Part shown: positions 1 through 55,934 of the stretch, piece after piece
Layout: every line of letters starts with the position of its first letter
Numbering within the stretch: the first letter of the stretch is position 1
From: Vairimorpha ceranae
Lineage: Eukaryota; Microsporidia; Nosematidae
DNA length: 64,000 nucleotides
Assembly: GCF_000988165.1 (NCBI RefSeq)
Contig: NW_020169302.1
Location: 55,806-119,805 of the forward strand
Reading direction: 5' to 3'
The notes under the pieces: model-generated
Databases searched by the model: none
The model's input: the letters and a program-made list of their open reading frames with translations, nothing else
Told to the model about the DNA's origin: nothing
Position numbers and translations under genes: made by a program

Positions 1-2288
1 ATACAACAAATGAAAATACAAAATTATCAGGGAGTATTTTATGCCTTAAAAAAATTTTATACGATTGTAATTTTTTTGGAGAAATTTCAAATTCAATTTA
101 TTCTTGGTTACAGCTTAGTGATACAAATGTGGCTTTTATAGAAGTAAACTATGAAAAATTAACTTTGTTTGCAATTTTAATAGAATGTGTGAATATTTAT
201 TTAACAGAGAAGATTAATATAGGTTTAATTTTTTCAAATTTTGAACATTTTAAAAAAAATATTACTGATTTAAATACAATTGATAGATACAAAAAATATT
301 TTTACAATCTCTATTGTAAAAAAAATGATAGGCTAGCAACATTAAAGTTGCACCAAATAATTATTTCTAATTACCCAAAAATAGAAGGATTTGACAACTT
401 CAAGATTTCTTTTTCAATTCACCAAAATCAGAAAAATATAACTAAAACTAAAGATGTCGATGATATTGATATCATTTATAAAGATAATTTTTATATTGTA
501 TTAAATAATCTTAATATGGAAATAACTGATGATATTAATTTTACTATAGATTTTATAAATAAAGATAAAAAAAAGACAATTTTCGAGTTTCCATTTAATG
601 TATTTTTTTACGATCAAGGTGTATTTAGATACAATAAAGAGGATGTTTTAACTGATATAAAATCTAAATTTCAAGATGAATTTAATTTTGATTTAGTTTT
701 TTTGGAAACTGAAAATTATATTAATTTAAGCTTATATGAAAACAAATACAATATTATTCAAGGAATAATAACAATTAATGAGCTTTTTAAAAGAAATAAA
801 AATGATAGCAAATTTGAAATGTTATTTAAAAAGGGATACGAAAAGAATATAGCTACATTTTGCAGTTTATTGAATTATTCAAATGCAGAAGCAAGTTCTT
901 TGATTTCGTTGCTTGAAAAAAAAGGCTACACAAATCTTTTTTCTCAAGGCAAATCTCTTAAAACTACTTTTATACATTTCCAAAAAACAAAGAACACGGA
1001 AGAATATAAAATATTAAAACAAGAGGACATTATACCAATAAAACCTTTTGATAAAGATAACCTGTATAAAAATATACTAAATAAAGATTTACCGGATATT
1101 GAACTCATTAAAGATGAGGAAAAACCTTCTCTTATACTAAAAAACCCCACCAAAAAGTTTGTATTGAAGAAGAAAAAGATTTTAGTTGAAAATGTAAATG
1201 AAATGAATTGTAAAGCTTTAAGACCCCTACATTGGGTACCGATAAATGATAATGATGGTACTATATTTAAAGACCTGGATATTTATAAATCAAAATTAGA
1301 TGTTGAAAAGTTTAAAAAATATTTTTGTGTTAATAGCAAAGATACAGAACATATAAACAATAATCAGTTAAATCAGGCAGTTACTGTTATTGATCAAAAA
1401 AGACTTTTTCTTGTTTCTTTAGCAATAAGCCATTTAAACAAAAAAAATATCAATCCAAAAAACATATACGATATGTTAATTAATAATCCAAAAGATATTT
1501 TTATACAAGATTTATTAAATTTGGAACATGTTTTTCCGACATATGAAGAGACGTATGTTTTAGCAAATTATGACTTTTCAAAATTGATGCCAGAAGAAAA
1601 AATTATGTTAGAATATTCAAAGTTATTAGAAGTTAAAAAGATAGTTAAAATTTTGTTATTTGAACGCAAATTTTTTGATGAAATATTTCTTATTGAAAAT
1701 TTATTAGAAAAAATAAAATTTACATTTGATAAAATAATAGAAAGTAAAGATTTTAAAATTATTTTAAAAATGATATTAGACATAGGAAATTTGATTAATT
1801 ATGATTTTTCTGCTAGAAAAAAGAAATCGGCCGGGTTTATGTTATCAAGCATATATCTTTTTGTAGATTATAAAGGACACGAGGATTATTCGTTATTTCA
1901 ATTTTTTATGGAAAGTATGGAATACAATAGCATTTCAATAAATTTACAGAGAGATTTTAAATACCTTAATATAATAAGAAAAGAACAGATTATAAAGATA
2001 AAAGAAAAAATTAATTTTTTGATTAAACAGTACAAAGACAATCTTCAAATGTATTATACATTAGAAAATGATAAGGCAACATTTACAAACTTTTTTTTAT
2101 TTGTAGCTGATAAGTTAACAAATATAAAAAGTAATTATGAAAAATGTACGGAAAAAATTGTACTAATTAAAAAGCTTTTTAATGAAGATGATAAAAGGAG
2201 TATAATTGATATGCTTGATTGTATTGCTTACTTAATAAGTAAAATTACAAATTATAAGCAGCCTATTTATGAAACTAATAATAGATAA
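1..2288 (+). CDS. Formin (FH2) with PTEN-like and C2-like N-terminal region; 5' end outside window
   Basis: The frame is open to the left edge, so the start lies outside; about 761 residues are visible. The C-terminal half is an FH2 actin-nucleating domain. It has the lasso/linker signature ALRPLHWVPI near base 1210 and a GN-motif region, LDIGNLINYDFSARKKKSAG, near 1777-1836. Before it, roughly bases 60-340 resemble the degenerate PTEN-phosphatase part of plant class II formins (IYSWLQLSDTNVAFIEV, then TIDRYKKYFYNL). A C2-like stretch follows (KLHQIIISNYPKIEGF; FPFNVFFYDQG). No CX5R phosphatase loop is visible, so the phosphatase fold would be inactive. No proline-rich FH1 is obvious; the linker is lysine-rich. 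FH2 is clear; the PTEN/C2 call is by remembered pattern only. It probably elongates actin filaments at membranes, perhaps under Rho control (compare the RhoGEF at 23.5 kb). Confidence 0.85.
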   Translation, partial: TTNENTKLSGSILCLKKILYDCNFFGEISNSIYSWLQLSDTNVAFIEVNYEKLTLFAILIECVNIYLTEKINIGLIFSNFEHFKKNITDLNTIDRYKKYFYNLYCKKNDRLATLKLHQIIISNYPKIEGFDNFKISFSIHQNQKNITKTKDVDDIDIIYKDNFYIVLNNLNMEITDDINFTIDFINKDKKKTIFEFPFNVFFYDQGVFRYNKEDVLTDIKSKFQDEFNFDLVFLETENYINLSLYENKYNIIQGIITINELFKRNKNDSKFEMLFKKGYEKNIATFCSLLNYSNAEASSLISLLEKKGYTNLFSQGKSLKTTFIHFQKTKNTEEYKILKQEDIIPIKPFDKDNLYKNILNKDLPDIELIKDEEKPSLILKNPTKKFVLKKKKILVENVNEMNCKALRPLHWVPINDNDGTIFKDLDIYKSKLDVEKFKKYFCVNSKDTEHINNNQLNQAVTVIDQKRLFLVSLAISHLNKKNINPKNIYDMLINNPKDIFIQDLLNLEHVFPTYEETYVLANYDFSKLMPEEKIMLEYSKLLEVKKIVKILLFERKFFDEIFLIENLLEKIKFTFDKIIESKDFKIILKMILDIGNLINYDFSARKKKSAGFMLSSIYLFVDYKGHEDYSLFQFFMESMEYNSISINLQRDFKYLNIIRKEQIIKIKEKINFLIKQYKDNLQMYYTLENDKATFTNFFLFVADKLTNIKSNYEKCTEKIVLIKKLFNEDDKRSIIDMLDCIAYLISKITNYKQPIYETNNR

Positions 2289-18004: not shown

Positions 18005-18117
18005 ATACAAAAAATGAAGGTATTAAAATCTTAATTTTTTCCATAAATTGGTAAAACAACAAATTTTACTATAAAAAATATAAAAGAAATTTTAAAAAAT
18101 ATTTTTCCATAGACCCA

Positions 18118-21100
18118 ATGACAGAGAATTTAGAAGATTTGGAATTACAGTTTAAATTTCAAGAATATTTATTTAGTGATAAGGTTGAAGGATACATTTT
18201 TAACTATCAACTTATAACTGGTGACATTTTACCATCTTATGGTAAAATATATTTTATATCTAAAGATATTCAAAATTTTTTTATAAAGGTACCATTTTAC
18301 TATTCACTACTAATTGAATGTATAAATATAAGTGATGTTCAAGAATACTTAAAGATTAAATATGCAGAGGGATATCATCATTATGAACTTGTTGAAAGAT
18401 TTGATATTGAAGAATACAATCATTTAAATAAACCGAAAAAAATGTTTTTAAAGGTTTTTATAAAAAACCAGGCAATTTACAGTAAAATTGTTAGAGATCT
18501 AAAACAAATAGTGTTGCGAAATAAAAATAATCGAAGCATCAACGATGTCTATAAAGAAATGATGTATTCTGAAGACGAAAATAAATTTGATGTAAAAACA
18601 AATATTTTAAATATCTATGATTTTGACATACCATCCGAAATTTTATTCGCAGAGATGTATAAAATAAGAGTTGGATGTTGGTTTGAATTCTCATACAACG
18701 GCGAAGTACATATTATTTCTGCGGTAAACATGTTAAAGATTCCTAATTTTAGAAAATTGGCTTTCAGTATTATAACTACAAATCAAGATTATTTAAATCC
18801 AGATTCAAACACAGATCAAGCAATAATGATTTCTGTTAAAACAGATACAACTAATATTTTGTTAATTAATCAAAACATTATTAAGGAGAATTTAAATGAA
18901 TTAGAATATACTTATGGTAATGAATCCAATATATTTACAATATACAATGTTAGTTGTGAAGAAGATCTTCTTTTAAAATTTATTGAAATAATACAAATAT
19001 ATAAACCACATATATTGATTACATATAACGGCAATTTATTTGATTTTTCATTTATTGAAACTAGACTTCTAAAATACGGACTTATAATGAAAAATCTTAT
19101 AGGAATTACGCGCATTTTTGATTATTTCTCTTGTCCATTTATACTTCATTTTGATTGTTTTACATGGATATCTAAATACGGAAATATACCGTATAAAAAT
19201 TTTACCTTAGAAATTGCAGCGAAACATATGTTAGATATTTCAATTGATAATCTTGTACAGAGTAAAATAAAATTTTTTGGTGACAAAAGATTTTGTGCAT
19301 TAGTAAATAGCATAGTAAAAGAGGTTTTGGTTGTTTATGATATTTTTAATCAAAAAATTTTTTACCAAACATTTTCATTAGCTACTATTGTGCCTTTTCC
19401 CATTTGTAAGATAATTAGTGAAATTTTAGAATTTTTATATGAAAGTATTTTAATTGTAGAATCTTTAAATTGCTCACTTTTAATACCAAGCATTAATCAG
19501 AAAACCAAATTTAAAATCCAGAACGGAAAAATTATTAATAAATTAACTAATAATACTTTAAATCCCTTTTGTACAAAGGAAGGAATTTTTAGAGCTGATT
19601 TTGAACATAATTTTATACTTAAAGATGAAGAGTTTGAATATATTTGCAAAAATATAGATATTTTTCTTAAAGATTTTAGAAATGAAATAGATTACAATTC
19701 CATTAAAACGTCAATTATTGATAATTTAACAAAACTTAATACCGGCTTAAATACAAAAGGTAATATATATCACATCGATATAAAATCTTTATATACAGAT
19801 ATAATTTTGGCATTGCGCCTACAGCCAACTTCATTTGTAACCAAAAATACTTGTATCAGATGTGATTTTTATAAAAATGAATTTAATTGCATTCTTCATT
19901 TAGATTGGCAAGCTAAAGTAGACTATTTTTTACTTGAACCAGATGAATTTAAACAAGTTAAAAAAGATGTCATTGATGACTATAACAAGAAATATCATAA
20001 AGATGACGGTTATAAATTAGAAAATTCTGTTAAAAAGTATAAAACTGAAGCTTCTAATTATTCTAATTTTGATGACTTATCGACTGACATGCAAAAAAAA
20101 ATTTTAAGAAATAAGATAGAAGATTATTCGTGTGAAAAAAATAAAAAGTCTTCATACAAAGTAATTGAAAATTTTCAATCTATTGTATGTCAGCTAGAAT
20201 TTTCTTTTATGCTTAATGTATTGAAAAAATTTAAAGAATATTTTATTTTGTACAAAAACAATCTTGAAAATATTAAAAAAGAGCTAAAAGAAAATTATAG
20301 TTCAGAGAATTTAAAAAAGAGTAAATTAACATCTTCCATATACTGGGCACATGAATATCTCTACAATTCATTTTGTAAATATATTTATTATGAAGGCGCT
20401 AGATGGTATTCAACAGAAATGACAATAATATTGGATAGTATCGCTACTGAGATTATAAAAAATTGTACTACTTTGTTAAACAAATTTTCTCTTCCTTTGA
20501 TTGTAAATTCAGAAAGTATTTGGACATTGTTACCTTTTACATTCCCTCAAGAAGTTGAATTTAAATCAGGTAAAAAATTTAATTTTCTTGAAAGCTTCAT
20601 TAATTTTAAAATTTTAAAGAATTTAAAACAGCAAGTCAAATGGAAAAATGAATGTAAAGAAATAGAAGATAAAATTAATTTTAATATTTATGGCCCATTT
20701 AAAGCTTTAATAGTGCCTAGTACATTACAAGAAAATAATCATTTAAGATCGAGATATCTAGCACTAAATTTTGATGGTACTATATATAAAAAATCTAGTC
20801 TTTACGAAAAAAAAGATTTTGATTTTTTATCAAATTTACAAAAAAAGTTATATTTATCATTTAATTATGGAAATAACTTAGAAGAATGTTATTGCAATTT
20901 ATCTAAAATTATTAGAGAATCCTTAGATGTTATTGATAATAAGGGGTGTTTTCTAACCACGAATGAAATATGTAGTCTTTTCAGTCAATATAATATATTG
21001 AAAAACAATGGTTTAGAAGTTGCTGATAAAAACAATATTGCATTTCATATTGCTCAAAAAATAACAGAGATTATTGATTCCCAGTATTATTTTAATTTTT

Positions 21101-23394
21101 TAGAAGATAAATATATAATATCTATTTATCCATTAAATGAACCTATTTATAATAGAACAATTCCTATTTCCGTGTTCGAAACACAAGAAAATAAACATTT
21201 GATTAAAAAATGGTGCAAATTAGATAAAGAGTTAGATATTAGAGAAATAATCGATTGGAATTATTATAAAAGTTGCATAGAAGAGACTGTTATAAAACTT
21301 ATTGTTTTGCCTTCTAGAGGTCAACAAGCTGGAAATTATTTTCCATTCTTAAAAGTCTCAAATAATGTGTACAAAATAACCACTAAGACAGATTTATCGG
21401 AATATTTACTTTTAAAAAAGGATAATGTTAATAAATTACCTAGCATAATACCAATTAAAAAAGAAATTATACAAGACAAATACTGGTTATATTATAACAA
21501 AATAAAAGAGCAGAATGGATTGATTAAAATTCAAACGACAGGTGATAATTATACTTTTATTTTTAGTTCTAAAAAAAATGTACACAAACCTATTTCTAAA
21601 ACTATTTATTTTAAGGCAGAAAAGATTTTTTATTTGGGCCATTCTGTAAAATTTGACAAAAAGATTTTACCAGAAACAAATACATTAGAAAAGATATCGT
21701 TTATAAATGATAGTGAAAATAATGTATTCAATTTTCTTACAAATACACTTATTACAGATGTATACAATTCACATGTTCCTTCTATTTTTCAATGTCGATT
21801 TGAGGAATTTAAAATATCAAAAAATTTATCTTTTTCTGTATTAACTACCTTTCATTATGATAATTCAATTATTTATGTATTTAGTAAAAATGGAAAGTAT
21901 ACCTTTATTTCTAATTTTAAGCATTCTAAAATCCAAAATATTAATATTAATGATTTTTTATCGAAACATGTTAGTGGCTTAATTGTTATTAACAGATTTG
22001 ATAAAAATTTTGACACTTTGTTGAAACTGTGTGAAAAATATAATACAATTGTTGATCAAGTTCATAAAAAGTTATTTTTATGTAATTTTTCAAAATTATT
22101 AGAAACGCATAAAAATTTACATAAAGAGATACTTTCAAATATAAAAATGAAACAAGAATTATGCGCATATGCAAATATTCCTTTTGGAAATAATGATATT
22201 AATATACTTGATTATATTTTATATAAAAATATAACAGAGCTTAATGGTGTCTTATCACATCCAGGTGATGAATCTTTTAGATTATATAAAAATGAAAAAA
22301 TTATATCAGGTTACTATAATCAATATACTATTCAGTTTGAATGTGTAGGATCTTTAATATTATCTATTTTAGAATATAAGTTTTTACTTGATCAGCAAAT
22401 GTATCAAGAACTTGAAAGTATTGAATTTAAATCTTTGTATAACATTATTAAGAATTTATTTGTAGATAGTAGTAAGAATATCTTAGGTGCTAGTTTATTA
22501 CTTAATAAAGTTGAAAACTGGATTCGTCGTGATTCAAATTTACTTTCTGCAAAAATTAGAAATATGGTTAGTTTTTTACATCAGAGATATTTATTCAATA
22601 TTATTGCTTTTTTTAAAGAAATAAAAATTAAAATGGTTTATGTCAGTTGTAACATTATGTGTATTGATTTGGAAAAAGATACCAAAGAAGGAGCTGCTTA
22701 TGTTTTTGATAATTGCAAAAAATTAATTCAAGAAAAAAAGGAATTTTTACATTTAAATTTAAGACAATTAAGAATTTTTGAAAAACTTTTGATTGTTGAT
22801 CCAAACATTTATTTTTATCAAAAGAATGGTGATATTTTTAATTCTAGCGAAATAAAGATGCCTATTGATTTTATTAAAAGATATTTTGATAATGAAAAGC
22901 TTAAAAATGAATATATATATGATTTAGTGACAAAAGTAGATATTGATGTTGCAAATTTAATTATTACAGCTTTGTCTTTTAAATCAGACATGGAATATGT
23001 TATTTCAAATTGTAAGAAGTTATTAAAGATAGATGACTTTTTAGAATCAGGAAAATATCTTGAAATGGTTATTTTATGTAAAAAATGCAACACAGAGAAT
23101 ATTTTAAGAAATAAATGCATAAAGTGCATGTCAATTTATGAAAAAGATAGTATTTTTCAGGTTATCGATAAACATTTTAATTATTTTATTAATCTAGCTT
23201 TAAGCCATGATATTTATTGCAATAAATGCAGTTCTATAAATGAAAAGATGTTAGTTGAATATTGCGATTGTGGAGGACAATATGCAAAAAAAGATTATAG
23301 TAAAGAATTTTTAACTATTCTCAATAAGATTACTGATAAAGATATCAAACAATCTTATAAAAAGAAACTTAAATTTTATCAAATAAATTTATAA
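18118..23394 (+). CDS. POL2: DNA polymerase epsilon large subunit, predicted catalytically inactive
   Basis: An uninterrupted 1,758-residue frame; ATG 18118 follows CCC (18114-18116). It aligns by eye with Pol2 from end to end: the N-domain, DQAIMISV, TYNGNLFDF, GARWYSTEM (motif B flank), the thumb (DIREIIDWNYYKSCI), then the Pol2-specific C-terminal half. The end carries CysA (C1654, C1657, C1667, C1670) and CysB (C1701, C1704, C1716, C1718). Catalytic residues are replaced. Exo I FDIET is FSIIT (S217, I219), exo III YxxxD is SIVKE (E402), the motif B Lys is E746, and motif C DTD is NSE (797-799). Exo II D309 and motif A D554 remain. The C-terminal half, needed in yeast for helicase assembly, is retained. 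Yeast Pol2 is 2,222 residues. Confidence 0.9.
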   Translation: MTENLEDLELQFKFQEYLFSDKVEGYIFNYQLITGDILPSYGKIYFISKDIQNFFIKVPFYYSLLIECINISDVQEYLKIKYAEGYHHYELVERFDIEEYNHLNKPKKMFLKVFIKNQAIYSKIVRDLKQIVLRNKNNRSINDVYKEMMYSEDENKFDVKTNILNIYDFDIPSEILFAEMYKIRVGCWFEFSYNGEVHIISAVNMLKIPNFRKLAFSIITTNQDYLNPDSNTDQAIMISVKTDTTNILLINQNIIKENLNELEYTYGNESNIFTIYNVSCEEDLLLKFIEIIQIYKPHILITYNGNLFDFSFIETRLLKYGLIMKNLIGITRIFDYFSCPFILHFDCFTWISKYGNIPYKNFTLEIAAKHMLDISIDNLVQSKIKFFGDKRFCALVNSIVKEVLVVYDIFNQKIFYQTFSLATIVPFPICKIISEILEFLYESILIVESLNCSLLIPSINQKTKFKIQNGKIINKLTNNTLNPFCTKEGIFRADFEHNFILKDEEFEYICKNIDIFLKDFRNEIDYNSIKTSIIDNLTKLNTGLNTKGNIYHIDIKSLYTDIILALRLQPTSFVTKNTCIRCDFYKNEFNCILHLDWQAKVDYFLLEPDEFKQVKKDVIDDYNKKYHKDDGYKLENSVKKYKTEASNYSNFDDLSTDMQKKILRNKIEDYSCEKNKKSSYKVIENFQSIVCQLEFSFMLNVLKKFKEYFILYKNNLENIKKELKENYSSENLKKSKLTSSIYWAHEYLYNSFCKYIYYEGARWYSTEMTIILDSIATEIIKNCTTLLNKFSLPLIVNSESIWTLLPFTFPQEVEFKSGKKFNFLESFINFKILKNLKQQVKWKNECKEIEDKINFNIYGPFKALIVPSTLQENNHLRSRYLALNFDGTIYKKSSLYEKKDFDFLSNLQKKLYLSFNYGNNLEECYCNLSKIIRESLDVIDNKGCFLTTNEICSLFSQYNILKNNGLEVADKNNIAFHIAQKITEIIDSQYYFNFLEDKYIISIYPLNEPIYNRTIPISVFETQENKHLIKKWCKLDKELDIREIIDWNYYKSCIEETVIKLIVLPSRGQQAGNYFPFLKVSNNVYKITTKTDLSEYLLLKKDNVNKLPSIIPIKKEIIQDKYWLYYNKIKEQNGLIKIQTTGDNYTFIFSSKKNVHKPISKTIYFKAEKIFYLGHSVKFDKKILPETNTLEKISFINDSENNVFNFLTNTLITDVYNSHVPSIFQCRFEEFKISKNLSFSVLTTFHYDNSIIYVFSKNGKYTFISNFKHSKIQNININDFLSKHVSGLIVINRFDKNFDTLLKLCEKYNTIVDQVHKKLFLCNFSKLLETHKNLHKEILSNIKMKQELCAYANIPFGNNDINILDYILYKNITELNGVLSHPGDESFRLYKNEKIISGYYNQYTIQFECVGSLILSILEYKFLLDQQMYQELESIEFKSLYNIIKNLFVDSSKNILGASLLLNKVENWIRRDSNLLSAKIRNMVSFLHQRYLFNIIAFFKEIKIKMVYVSCNIMCIDLEKDTKEGAAYVFDNCKKLIQEKKEFLHLNLRQLRIFEKLLIVDPNIYFYQKNGDIFNSSEIKMPIDFIKRYFDNEKLKNEYIYDLVTKVDIDVANLIITALSFKSDMEYVISNCKKLLKIDDFLESGKYLEMVILCKKCNTENILRNKCIKCMSIYEKDSIFQVIDKHFNYFINLALSHDIYCNKCSSINEKMLVEYCDCGGQYAKKDYSKEFLTILNKITDKDIKQSYKKKLKFYQINL

Positions 23395-23504: not shown

Positions 23505-25247
23505 ATGAGTGATAATTATGTTCAAACAGATATCCTAGATTATATAGATATTCTAAAATATAAATACACACCATCTAGGACTTTTATTACATACATAGAA
23601 AATTTTGGTTCTCTTTGTGTTTCAATTTCTGTACAGAAAGATTATCTTTATGCTTTTTGTAGATCCATCCTTGGCTTAAAAGAATTTAAATACTTTAATG
23701 ACGACTCTTCTGAAAAAAGTATATTACTTAGAGCTGTTTATGAATATTTTCAACTGTTTGTTAAAAACTGGGATATTCAAATAAACACAAAACCAAGATT
23801 TTTTGACACATTACTTTCATTTGTAAGTTTTAATCTTTATTCAATAGGTACATCAATAACAAGTAATTCTCTAAGCAGTTTAGTACAAGTTAATATCCTA
23901 TCAAATATACATAATTTCAAGATAGAAGTTCTAAGAAACAGGTTCATAGAATTAAACTACTTTTATGCAGAAGAAATAGAAAACTTTATTTTAAGGGACT
24001 TTTTAGACATTGAAATTAAATCAACAAAAAAAGAAGTAATAAACCATTTTAACGAAATAATAGTCACATCTGAAGATTTAGGAAAAACGCAAATAGAATA
24101 TGAAGATTTAGAAAATGGTCCAGAAATAATTATCAAAGAATTTATTTACAGCGAAATAGAAGTTTTACAAATTGTCAATAAAACGTATTATGACGAAATA
24201 TTAAAGTTTAAAGATAGGCTTCCCGCGTTTAAGTATAATGAATATTTTAAGGATATTGAAGATTTTTTCAATTTGTCTAAATTACTTGTTAAATCTCTTG
24301 TAAGAGCATTTTATCAATATAAGTATCCGTCTGTGAGTCATACACTAGCTGATATTTTTATTACGGAAAAATCTACCAGTGACAAAAGTCACAAAATAAA
24401 ATTTGTAAATGAGGAAAAAGACATAGTAGAAAAATTTACGAGAATATTAGTAGATAATGGTGACTATTTTGATTTTTACAGAAATATTGTCAGTGGACAT
24501 AAAAATATATTAAAAAATTGTAATATTAAAGGGGCAAATTTAATAAATCTATCAGATACATATAATATTATTTTACAGAGACTTACTAAATTTGACCTAC
24601 TTTTTTCGCGAATATTAAAATACACAGATCCCAAATCGCACGGATACGATTTATTGAAAACATTTAAGCTAAAATTAAAAAAATTTGTCGTTTTTCTTGA
24701 CGACTTGCTTGACGAACAATGTAAAAAGGAAAGAACGTGGGATCTTTGTATTAAACATCAGTTAATTGATGTAAAGGGTAATTTTATTGATGAAATTACT
24801 TCTAACGGACTTATGTTTATTTTACTTGCTGATTATATTCTTATTGTTGAAAATGACAAGTTAATAGATTTTTTAAATGTGAAAAATTTAGACGTTCATG
24901 AAAATGGAAAAAAATCGTTTTTTATTATCACGAATAAAAAGATAAACATCGATTTACATTATCATTTTGAATTGGAAAATTACAAAATGTATGTTATTAA
25001 ATGTATTTGTTTAAGTAAAGGGATAAGAGATAGATTTGTATTAAACGTACGACAATCAAGAAAAAAGTATAGTACTAATCAGCAAGTAATAGTTAAAACA
25101 ATAGTAAAAAATTTAGAAACGTATTCTATTCCTTTTTTATATAAAAAAGATGAAGAGTGGATTCTTATGAAATATAAGTTTATTATGGAAGAAGTGTTAA
25201 ATGCTAATGAAAACAATGAAATAGTTAATATGAATGAATTGGATTAA
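23505..25247 (+). CDS. Rho guanine-nucleotide exchange factor (DH-PH-like)
   Basis: A 580-residue protein. The middle (about 210-400) looks like a Dbl-homology domain. It opens with a CR1-like helix IYSEIEVLQIVNKTYYDEIL. Its last helix follows the CR3 pattern LTKFDLLFSRILKYT. Beta-rich sequence after about residue 410 (RTWDLCIKHQLIDVKG; LMFILLADYILIVEN) fits a PH domain. It would activate a Rho GTPase, upstream of exocyst, formin and wall or polarity control. The start is ATG 23505 with ACCC upstream. The call rests on motif pattern, not a search. It lies 110 bases after POL2, same strand. Confidence 0.7.
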   Translation: MSDNYVQTDILDYIDILKYKYTPSRTFITYIENFGSLCVSISVQKDYLYAFCRSILGLKEFKYFNDDSSEKSILLRAVYEYFQLFVKNWDIQINTKPRFFDTLLSFVSFNLYSIGTSITSNSLSSLVQVNILSNIHNFKIEVLRNRFIELNYFYAEEIENFILRDFLDIEIKSTKKEVINHFNEIIVTSEDLGKTQIEYEDLENGPEIIIKEFIYSEIEVLQIVNKTYYDEILKFKDRLPAFKYNEYFKDIEDFFNLSKLLVKSLVRAFYQYKYPSVSHTLADIFITEKSTSDKSHKIKFVNEEKDIVEKFTRILVDNGDYFDFYRNIVSGHKNILKNCNIKGANLINLSDTYNIILQRLTKFDLLFSRILKYTDPKSHGYDLLKTFKLKLKKFVVFLDDLLDEQCKKERTWDLCIKHQLIDVKGNFIDEITSNGLMFILLADYILIVENDKLIDFLNVKNLDVHENGKKSFFIITNKKINIDLHYHFELENYKMYVIKCICLSKGIRDRFVLNVRQSRKKYSTNQQVIVKTIVKNLETYSIPFLYKKDEEWILMKYKFIMEEVLNANENNEIVNMNELD

Positions 25248-25491: not shown

Positions 25492-26199
25492 ATGAATTCA
25501 GATCTTTTGGAATTTCATCAGTTTTGTAAGGAAGAACATTTTAAATTGCTAGATAAATACAATCTTCTCTACTACGGTTTTGGTTGTAAAAAAAATATTT
25601 TAAGAAAAATGTTTCCTGAGGCACTACAATTTGATATGAATGTTTATACCTTAAATGATATACTTCTTGAACTAAATATAAAATATAATACTAATTATAA
25701 ACATCTATCTGAATTTAATTGTAGAGAAATTATTATTTTATTAGATTTTAATTTTAAATATGCATGCAATTTTTATTTTACGTCTTTTAGACTTATATTT
25801 ACATTAGAAAAAATAAATAAAGAAATATCTTCCGAAGATTTACAAAATCTTAATATTATTTTGAGAGATTTAACGACTTACGAAGATTATGGAATTGACA
25901 CTATAGAACATAAAGAAGTAAATATTGAAGGATATCTTAATGTTATAAGAAATGGATCAAAAAATAGCAAAATATCTTTTAAACATCTACTAGAATTTAA
26001 TAAACCTACTGTACCTGTTGTAGATTTATTTAATAAAATAAAAAAAAATCTTATGATTATAAGAAAGAATTTATTGTTTAATTTTTTGAGTGAATTTATT
26101 GAGCATAAAATGATAAAAATTAAGGATCAACAAAATATAGAAATTTTAATAGATTTAAAATATTTTAAAGATCTTATTGATGAATGTAATAAAAATTAG
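25492..26199 (+). CDS. ORC2: Origin recognition complex subunit 2
   Basis: A reduced ORC2 of 235 residues (yeast 620). The signature NLLYYGFGCKKNIL (about 24-37) matches the ORC2 LLFYGlGSKr motif of the AAA+-like domain. The IIILLDFNFKYACNFYFTS and FRLIFTLEKIN stretches fit later strands, and a winged-helix-like tail follows. The N-terminal disordered half of other ORC2 proteins is missing. It helps load MCM helicase at replication origins. It lies downstream of the POL2 gene on the same strand, with the RhoGEF between. The ATG has TTATCCTTCATTT before it, a weak C-signal. Confidence 0.85.
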   Translation: MNSDLLEFHQFCKEEHFKLLDKYNLLYYGFGCKKNILRKMFPEALQFDMNVYTLNDILLELNIKYNTNYKHLSEFNCREIIILLDFNFKYACNFYFTSFRLIFTLEKINKEISSEDLQNLNIILRDLTTYEDYGIDTIEHKEVNIEGYLNVIRNGSKNSKISFKHLLEFNKPTVPVVDLFNKIKKNLMIIRKNLLFNFLSEFIEHKMIKIKDQQNIEILIDLKYFKDLIDECNKN

Positions 26200-55480: not shown

Positions 55481-55934
55481 ACTCTTTAATTGAATGTTAG
55501 TTTTTATAAAAAATTAGTTTTATTTTAAAAATTGCAAAAATTTTATGTGATGCAGCCTAAAATAACATGGGTCTATTTTCGCAACCAATTTCACGTCAAA
55601 TTAATAATAAAAATTAAAATTTGTTTAAATTACAACACTAACACTACAGAACCTAACATTATGATTTAGTACTTTTATAAACCATAAATCTTCTTTGAGT
55701 TAATAATAATTTTAAATTTGAAACACAAACGAAAAACATTAAGGACTTAAAAAGAGATACAGGGGAGAATTATTATATCTTTTAAAGTACTAAACACACT
55801 TCAATAAAGATATTTATAAAATATTTTTTATTTATGTATTTAAAATAATTGCAAATTTAATAAATTAAATTTTGTTTTTTAATTTAATTGATACACTTGA
55901 CAGTTTAAATATAAATCTTTTTTCGGGCCTGCAA
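55481..55934. other. 454-base intergenic region GlnRS/NUP85
   Basis: AT-rich. No frame with a start signal. A CCCATG on the minus strand near 55567 runs into a stop after three codons. The last 60 bases are open in the NUP85 frame but have no ATG. Confidence 0.45.

Follow-up and report, generated by a model that had tools for sequence, protein, structure and literature searches.

Loss of exonuclease and polymerase active-site residues in the sole Pol epsilon found in Vairimorpha ceranae, probably kept as a structural subunit

The inactivation of C-Pol2, the second polymerase fold of the Pol epsilon catalytic subunit Pol2, is ancient, and losses of Pol epsilon in Entamoeba and in some microsporidia have reportedly been described by Kazlauskas and others. 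Excerpts of the published work describe C-Pol2 as inactive yet essential, with neither positive charge in its groove nor DNA binding (PMC6265327), and report from genome comparison that Pol epsilon, or else the C-terminal half of it, is missing from all Entamoeba and some microsporidia (PMC7544198). Yeast cells without the Pol2 catalytic domains are viable and slow growing, and Pol delta was suggested to make both strands, whereas the point mutant D875A/D877A is inviable, which was put down to other polymerases being kept away from the primer end; in the same excerpt the N-terminal part of Pol2 was suggested to stabilise the essential C-terminal part (PMC5829166). Life without Pol epsilon synthesis is thus known experimentally from sick yeast strains.

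A Pol2 homologue of a different kind is described here from the microsporidian Vairimorpha ceranae. It lies in the stretch of DNA analysed, called the window below, which is 64,000 nucleotides long (contig NW_020169302.1, forward strand, positions 55,806 to 119,805). The SSU rRNA of the genome matched the microsporidia model of Rfam over all 1,311 positions with 1,041.8 bits, more than any other model of its clan. The SSU rRNA gene (1501-2759 of locus L012, + strand) is preceded, at a distance of about 600 bases, by a 5S rRNA gene on the opposite strand (779-897). The gene and its domains are laid out as follows, in window coordinates.

18114..18116, + strand: CCC start signal directly 5' of the Pol2 ATG (17/26 ORFs against a background of 5.1%)
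18118..23394, + strand: POL2 homologue, Pol epsilon catalytic subunit of 1,758 amino acids, catalytically degenerate (ORF, phmmer, Pfam)
19852..19890, + strand: P-domain CysX cysteines C579, C582 and C591, kept (alignment)
20188..20190, + strand: fourth CysX cysteine, C691, kept, which makes 4/4 for CysX (alignment)
20395..20421, + strand: GARWYSTEM, conserved anchor of the alignment (phmmer alignment)
20815..21321, + strand: POL2_thumb domain PF22634, 152.6 bits, cut-off 27 (Pfam)
22408..22803, + strand: end of DUF1744 (PF08490) of the C-terminal module, 35.9 bits, cut-off 27 (Pfam, weak)
23077..23127, + strand: presumed CysA, C1654, C1657, C1667 and C1670 (spacing only; the yeast alignment there is very weak, 4.0 bits)
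23218..23271, + strand: CysB, C1701, C1704, C1716 and C1718, inside the zf-DPOE match (Pfam and cysteines)

When the protein was compared with the PDB by phmmer, residues 8-1091 matched human Pol epsilon (E 9.7e-112) and residues 45-1142 matched yeast Pol2 (E 5.4e-105). Among the 58 matching PDB sequences the top 24 belonged without exception to Pol epsilon (E 9.7e-112 to 4.3e-35), and the remaining 34 were other polymerases, aligned over part of the exonuclease domain. The alignment with the human and yeast proteins was gapless from motif B to just beyond motif C, in agreement with the claim of an earlier note on this DNA that GARWYSTEM is retained and fixes the alignment. The exonuclease domain is still recognisable, as a six-frame search placed PF03104 at 18613-19209 (+) in the gene with 81.7 bits, a match absent from hmmscan. 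The C-terminal half is short, strongly diverged and weakly recognisable: 614 amino acids follow residue 1144, the end of the aligned N-terminal module, as against 984 past residue 1238 in yeast, the DUF1744 match covers only positions 261-393 of the 399 in the model, and the zf-DPOE (PF22912) match is weak (25 bits, cut-off 21). Single-sequence AlphaFold predictions gave no meaningful fold for residues 1100-1758 or 1-1140 (mean pLDDT 32.0 and 29.7, respectively).

Three other ORFs of the window were noted. An ORF at 129-2288 (+), with a GTG start, encodes a PTEN C2 domain (34.5 bits) followed by a formin FH2 domain (69.1 bits), an actin-nucleator architecture that is unexpected in a reduced microsporidian. 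The ORF directly downstream of Pol2, at 23505-25247 (+), matches RhoGEF weakly, with 29.6 bits against a cut-off of 27.6. The ORF at 25492-26199 (+) encodes an ORC2-like protein of 235 amino acids, whose RecA-like ORC2 domain scored 28.3 bits (cut-off 25.1) and whose winged helix scored 21.9 bits, below its cut-off; ORC2 of model organisms is much longer than 235 amino acids.

The active-site regions of Pol2 were read from the phmmer alignment and the alignment with the human (residues 44-927) and yeast (residues 119-1236) fragments, whose lengths were consistent with these coordinates. Where two residues are equated below, the first carries the yeast number.

18757..18780, + strand: exo I, LAFDIETT changed to LAFSIITT, D290=S217 and E292=I219 (phmmer and alignment)
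19027..19044, + strand: exo II, NGNLFD, catalytic Asp D383=D309 kept (alignment)
19309..19323, + strand: exo III, Y473=S398 and D477=E402 (alignment)
19777..19803, + strand: motif A, DIKSLYTDI, D640=D554 and steric-gate Y645=Y559 kept, P and N lost (alignment)
20230..20256, + strand: fingers helix, FRDRRYEFK changed to FKEYFILYK, R781=F709 and K785=K713 kept (alignment)
20350..20382, + strand: motif B, HKVILNSFYGY changed to HEYLYNSFCKY, K824=E746, N828=N750 kept, Y831=C753 and G832=K754 (alignment)
20506..20514, + strand: motif C, DTD changed to NSE, D875-T-D877 being N797, S798 and E799 (phmmer and alignment)
20746..20757, + strand: KKRY changed to RSRY, K967=S878 (compared with yeast only)

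The starting observation, made at 20347-20526 of the window, that motif C reads NSE instead of DTD at residues 797-799 and that motif B has Glu for Lys and has lost its YG pair, held in letters and in numbers when aligned with human and yeast (E746; C753-K754). The two carboxylates of motif C and the Asp of motif A that a polymerase needs are therefore represented only by D640, with D875N and D877E beside it. The motif B Lys and the fingers Arg bind the triphosphate; both are replaced (K824E, R781F), and K785 is kept. Only 1/5 of the exonuclease catalytic residues (D and E of exo I, D of exo II, Y and D of exo III) is retained. An apparent loss in exo II was rejected, as the altered Asp corresponds to human D365 and the catalytic one is D368. 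The P-domain pair H748/R749 of yeast is K/K here, the same as in human. The polymerase is read as dead because it has lost the motif C metal ligands, the motif B YG and both residues that bind the triphosphate (Lys and Arg), and the exonuclease because it has lost the exo I carboxylates. Judged from these residue losses, both N-terminal enzymes of Pol2 are probably dead, and the protein would have no activity at all. D640, Y645, N828, K785 and the exonuclease D383 remain despite the losses and were counted against inactivity.

The other replicative polymerases of the same genome were used for comparison. Pol delta is 977 amino acids long, with human Pol delta as its best PDB match (E 1.6e-251) and with intact exonuclease positions. 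Pol alpha, of 866 amino acids, has Pol alpha as its best PDB match (E 6.5e-66), is without an exonuclease match and retains DFNSLYPSI, KILANSIYG, YGDTDSI and KKRY. Sixteen catalytic positions were chosen from established knowledge: D290, E292, D640, Y645, N828, D875 and D877 are named in papers, and the others are D383, Y473, D477, R781, K785, K824, Y831, G832 and K967, which we take to be catalytic as well. Pol epsilon retains 5/16 of them and Pol delta 16/16 (Fisher 6.8e-5), so that the Pol delta motifs, which the earlier note had proposed to check, are intact at every catalytic position compared.

These data bear on the possibility that Pol2 remains a working polymerase in which an altered set of ligands, Asp554, Glu799 and Lys713, binds metal and nucleotide. 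The motif A Asp, the steric-gate Tyr, the motif B Asn and one fingers Lys remain, and primer-independent PolBs are described, in the excerpt available, as active without the first motif C Asp (PMC7544198). Against this, D875, D877, K824, R781, Y831 and G832 are changed together here and are all kept in Pol delta, the motif B and motif C residues are kept in Pol alpha, and the polymerase activity of yeast Pol epsilon is described as abrogated by D875A/D877A (PMC5829166, in excerpt). We consider residual synthesis very unlikely.

The catalytic positions were expected beforehand to have been lost faster than the background, and this was rejected. Positions identical in human and yeast are retained at 152/461 (33%) in Pol epsilon and at 275/462 (60%) in Pol delta, and 5/16 is equal to the background of Pol epsilon itself. 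Catalysis is thus no longer protected, and loss at the background rate shows a released constraint rather than a targeted loss. Some constraint on the core seems to persist, since positions identical in human and yeast epsilon and delta are kept at 35/71 in the epsilon of this genome, compared with 113/390 of the other conserved positions (p 0.0013). At the same 71 positions, shared across the B family, Pol delta keeps 56/71 and Pol alpha 29/71 with 10 gaps. As an active Pol alpha reaches only 29/71, this count is no proof of inactivity by itself, and the list of catalytic positions carries the case. Motif C was read from phmmer and from the human and yeast alignment, and its columns in the seven-sequence alignment of the B family were left unused, because a long epsilon insertion misplaced the motif there.

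The lost active sites could also be explained by a pseudogene, that is, by a gene that makes no useful protein. Some microsporidia, according to the excerpt, have no Pol epsilon or are missing the C-terminal half of it (PMC7544198). The sequence is strongly diverged, with 33% of the positions identical in human and yeast retained here and 60% retained in Pol delta. Erosion extends to Gly, Pro and aromatic residues, the short C-terminal half is hard to recognise, and Dpb2 went undetected in weak searches. The reading frame argues otherwise. It contains 0 stops across the 1,758 codons, whereas neutral simulation of the ORF (20 runs per level) gave on average 73.5 stops, and never fewer than 60, with 41% of codons changed, and on average 38.7, never fewer than 31, with 20% changed; 41% was a conservative choice, given that 11/16 (69%) of the catalytic codons have changed. 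The start signal is kept too. Excluding 8 ORFs with GTG or TTG starts from the 34 window ORFs of at least 150 amino acids left 26 that start with ATG, and 17 of these 26 carry CCC or GGG within 20 nt upstream, as compared with 700/13,800 intergenic 20-mers (5.1%). The earlier note's statement that the frame is intact over 1,758 codons and keeps its start signal was thus supported. Codon-position GC contrast is likewise present in the gene (GC3 0.163, GC12 0.262), within the spread of values from 11 further ORFs, and is found in codons 1-440 (0.175 and 0.272) and in codons 441-797 (0.179 and 0.261). Together with the kept aliphatic core and CysX, these features make a pseudogene unlikely.

Residue classes were compared at positions conserved in human and yeast. 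Aliphatic positions are still aliphatic, Phe or Cys at 131/179 in epsilon and 189/232 in delta (p 0.055), and the hydrophobic core of the N-terminal module is by this count retained in the sequence. Basic positions are still basic at 25/65 in epsilon against 56/72 in delta (p 4.5e-6), and at 17/38 against 31/39 within the palm, P-domain and fingers (p 0.002). Such losses might mark abolished DNA binding in particular, a claim that was weakened because other classes are eroded as well (aromatic positions retained 44/78 in epsilon and 52/59 in delta, Gly 7/28 and 27/43, Pro 10/30 and 23/32, acidic 36/85 and 41/63) and because the net charge is not below that of human or yeast. The net charge of residues 1-1140 is +1, compared with -21 for the human and -14 for the yeast fragment, the fragments spanning somewhat different stretches, and inside Pol epsilon the retention of basic and acidic positions did not differ (p 0.74). 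A specific loss of DNA-binding charge is therefore only suggested. Taken as a whole, the absence of stops, the GC contrast, and the kept aliphatic core and CysX beside eroded aromatic, Gly and Pro positions are indirect signs that the protein may have remained under constraint after catalysis was lost.

The assembly could have missed an intact Pol2, or could be wrong across the window. The assembly is in 116 contigs (4,559,957 bases searched), and its completeness was judged by proxies only. These were 14 proteasome-family matches, 14 being the number of different subunits in the eukaryotic 20S core, and 8 MCM-family matches. The presence of 8 MCM matches and not 6 perhaps reflects MCM8/9-like proteins beside MCM2-7. 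In the whole-genome search for a second Pol2, which the earlier note had also proposed, the protein used as its own query matched one place only, and PF00136 gave 3 matches in 2 genes, those of Pol delta and Pol alpha, and no other B-family polymerase. V. ceranae Pol2 itself was not matched by PF00136 in hmmscan (E up to 1), and the yeast Pol2 fragment scored 57.6 bits with it, so an ordinary Pol2 should be visible to this search. PF03104 was found by six-frame search in the Pol delta and Pol2 genes. Pol2 differs by substitutions that are scattered along some 2 kb of open frame, which is no error pattern. Given the single locus and the proxies, both a hidden intact copy and a misassembly are extremely unlikely. 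A search for relatives in viral contigs and in genome contigs gave 3 and 32 pattern matches, respectively, none of them confirmed.

Of the partners of Pol2, CDC45 is present (43.7 bits), and a Sld5-like GINS subunit is weakly indicated, below the cut-off (E 0.044). PF04042 was found in two places, which are Pol31 (the B-subunit of Pol delta) and Pol12 (that of Pol alpha). The link between Pol2 and GINS is Dpb2, and it was not detected: the human POLE2 query, a weak search run with no positive control, came back empty, a blank that is no evidence of absence, and PF12213 matched nowhere in the genome. In Encephalitozoon cuniculi both Pol2 and Dpb2 are listed, according to the excerpt (PMC1851970). 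The undetected Dpb2 is the weak point of a mechanism in which Pol2 serves as a structural subunit, and together with the strongly diverged C-terminal half it would fit a Pol2 repurposed outside replication, for example in DNA-damage signalling or chromatin. The zf-DPOE and DUF1744 matches remain, however, and in yeast the zinc-finger part is described as contacting Dpb2 and Mcm5 (PMC6265327, in excerpt), so such a repurposing appears quite unlikely.

The explanation we prefer, and regard as probable, is that the sole Pol epsilon found is doubly dead and non-catalytic, that it is kept as a structural part, and that Pol delta is the likely leading-strand polymerase. Pol2 would persist as a structural subunit whose C-terminal module helps CMG assembly as in yeast, and its N-terminal module would be a folded stabiliser that binds neither nucleotide nor primer, giving stability without blocking. 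Pol delta would then copy the leading strand, and would both copy and proofread the two strands. The interpretation of the earlier note is supported, and those of its refuting cases that were checked, a second Pol2 among them, did not turn up. Its yeast analogy stands in that the catalytic half of Pol2 can be deleted; only the emphasis shifts, the closer comparison being with the inviable D875A/D877A and not with the viable deletion (PMC5829166, in excerpt). The dead module may no longer hold the primer end, since it has lost residues that bind nucleotide as well as many conserved basic ones, and may thereby avoid the lethality of the yeast point mutants. That the loss of basic residues lets this lineage tolerate what kills yeast D875A/D877A is a weaker suggestion. 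The chances of the fuller account seem to us about even: both polymerase modules of Pol2 and the exonuclease would be inactive, Pol delta would copy and proofread both strands, and the N-terminal module would also have lost DNA binding, leaving the primer end unblocked and following the path taken earlier by the C-terminal module.

No report of an inactivated N-terminal Pol epsilon module was found among the papers listed by the literature searches. If the structural reading is true, this would be a lineage in nature that retains Pol epsilon without its catalysis, so that the structural role of the subunit is separated from the catalytic one, and Pol epsilon and Pol delta would not be obliged to share the work as they usually do. 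It also predicts that a dead Pol2 can be tolerated only if it leaves the primer end free.

Compared with Pol2/POLE of yeast and human, the V. ceranae protein has the P-domain CysX, the Pol2-specific thumb, the end of DUF1744 and zf-DPOE in the same order, and differs in that its own exonuclease and polymerase active sites are both lost and its tail is shorter. With C-Pol2 as described in excerpt (PMC6265327) it shares a B-family polymerase fold whose catalysis appears lost and which would be kept for structure; here, however, the apparently dead module is the N-terminal one that is normally active, and the loss of DNA binding is only suggested. Like the yeast mutants pol2-16 and pol2-D875A,D877A (PMC5829166, in excerpt), it would perform no Pol epsilon synthesis, but those are laboratory alleles that are sick or inviable, whereas this one is natural and the dead module is present. 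As in Entamoeba and some microsporidia (PMC7544198, in excerpt), the lineage would have taken another route away from an ordinary Pol epsilon; there the subunit or its C-terminal half is missing, whereas here the N-terminal module is apparently dead and the zinc-finger match is retained.
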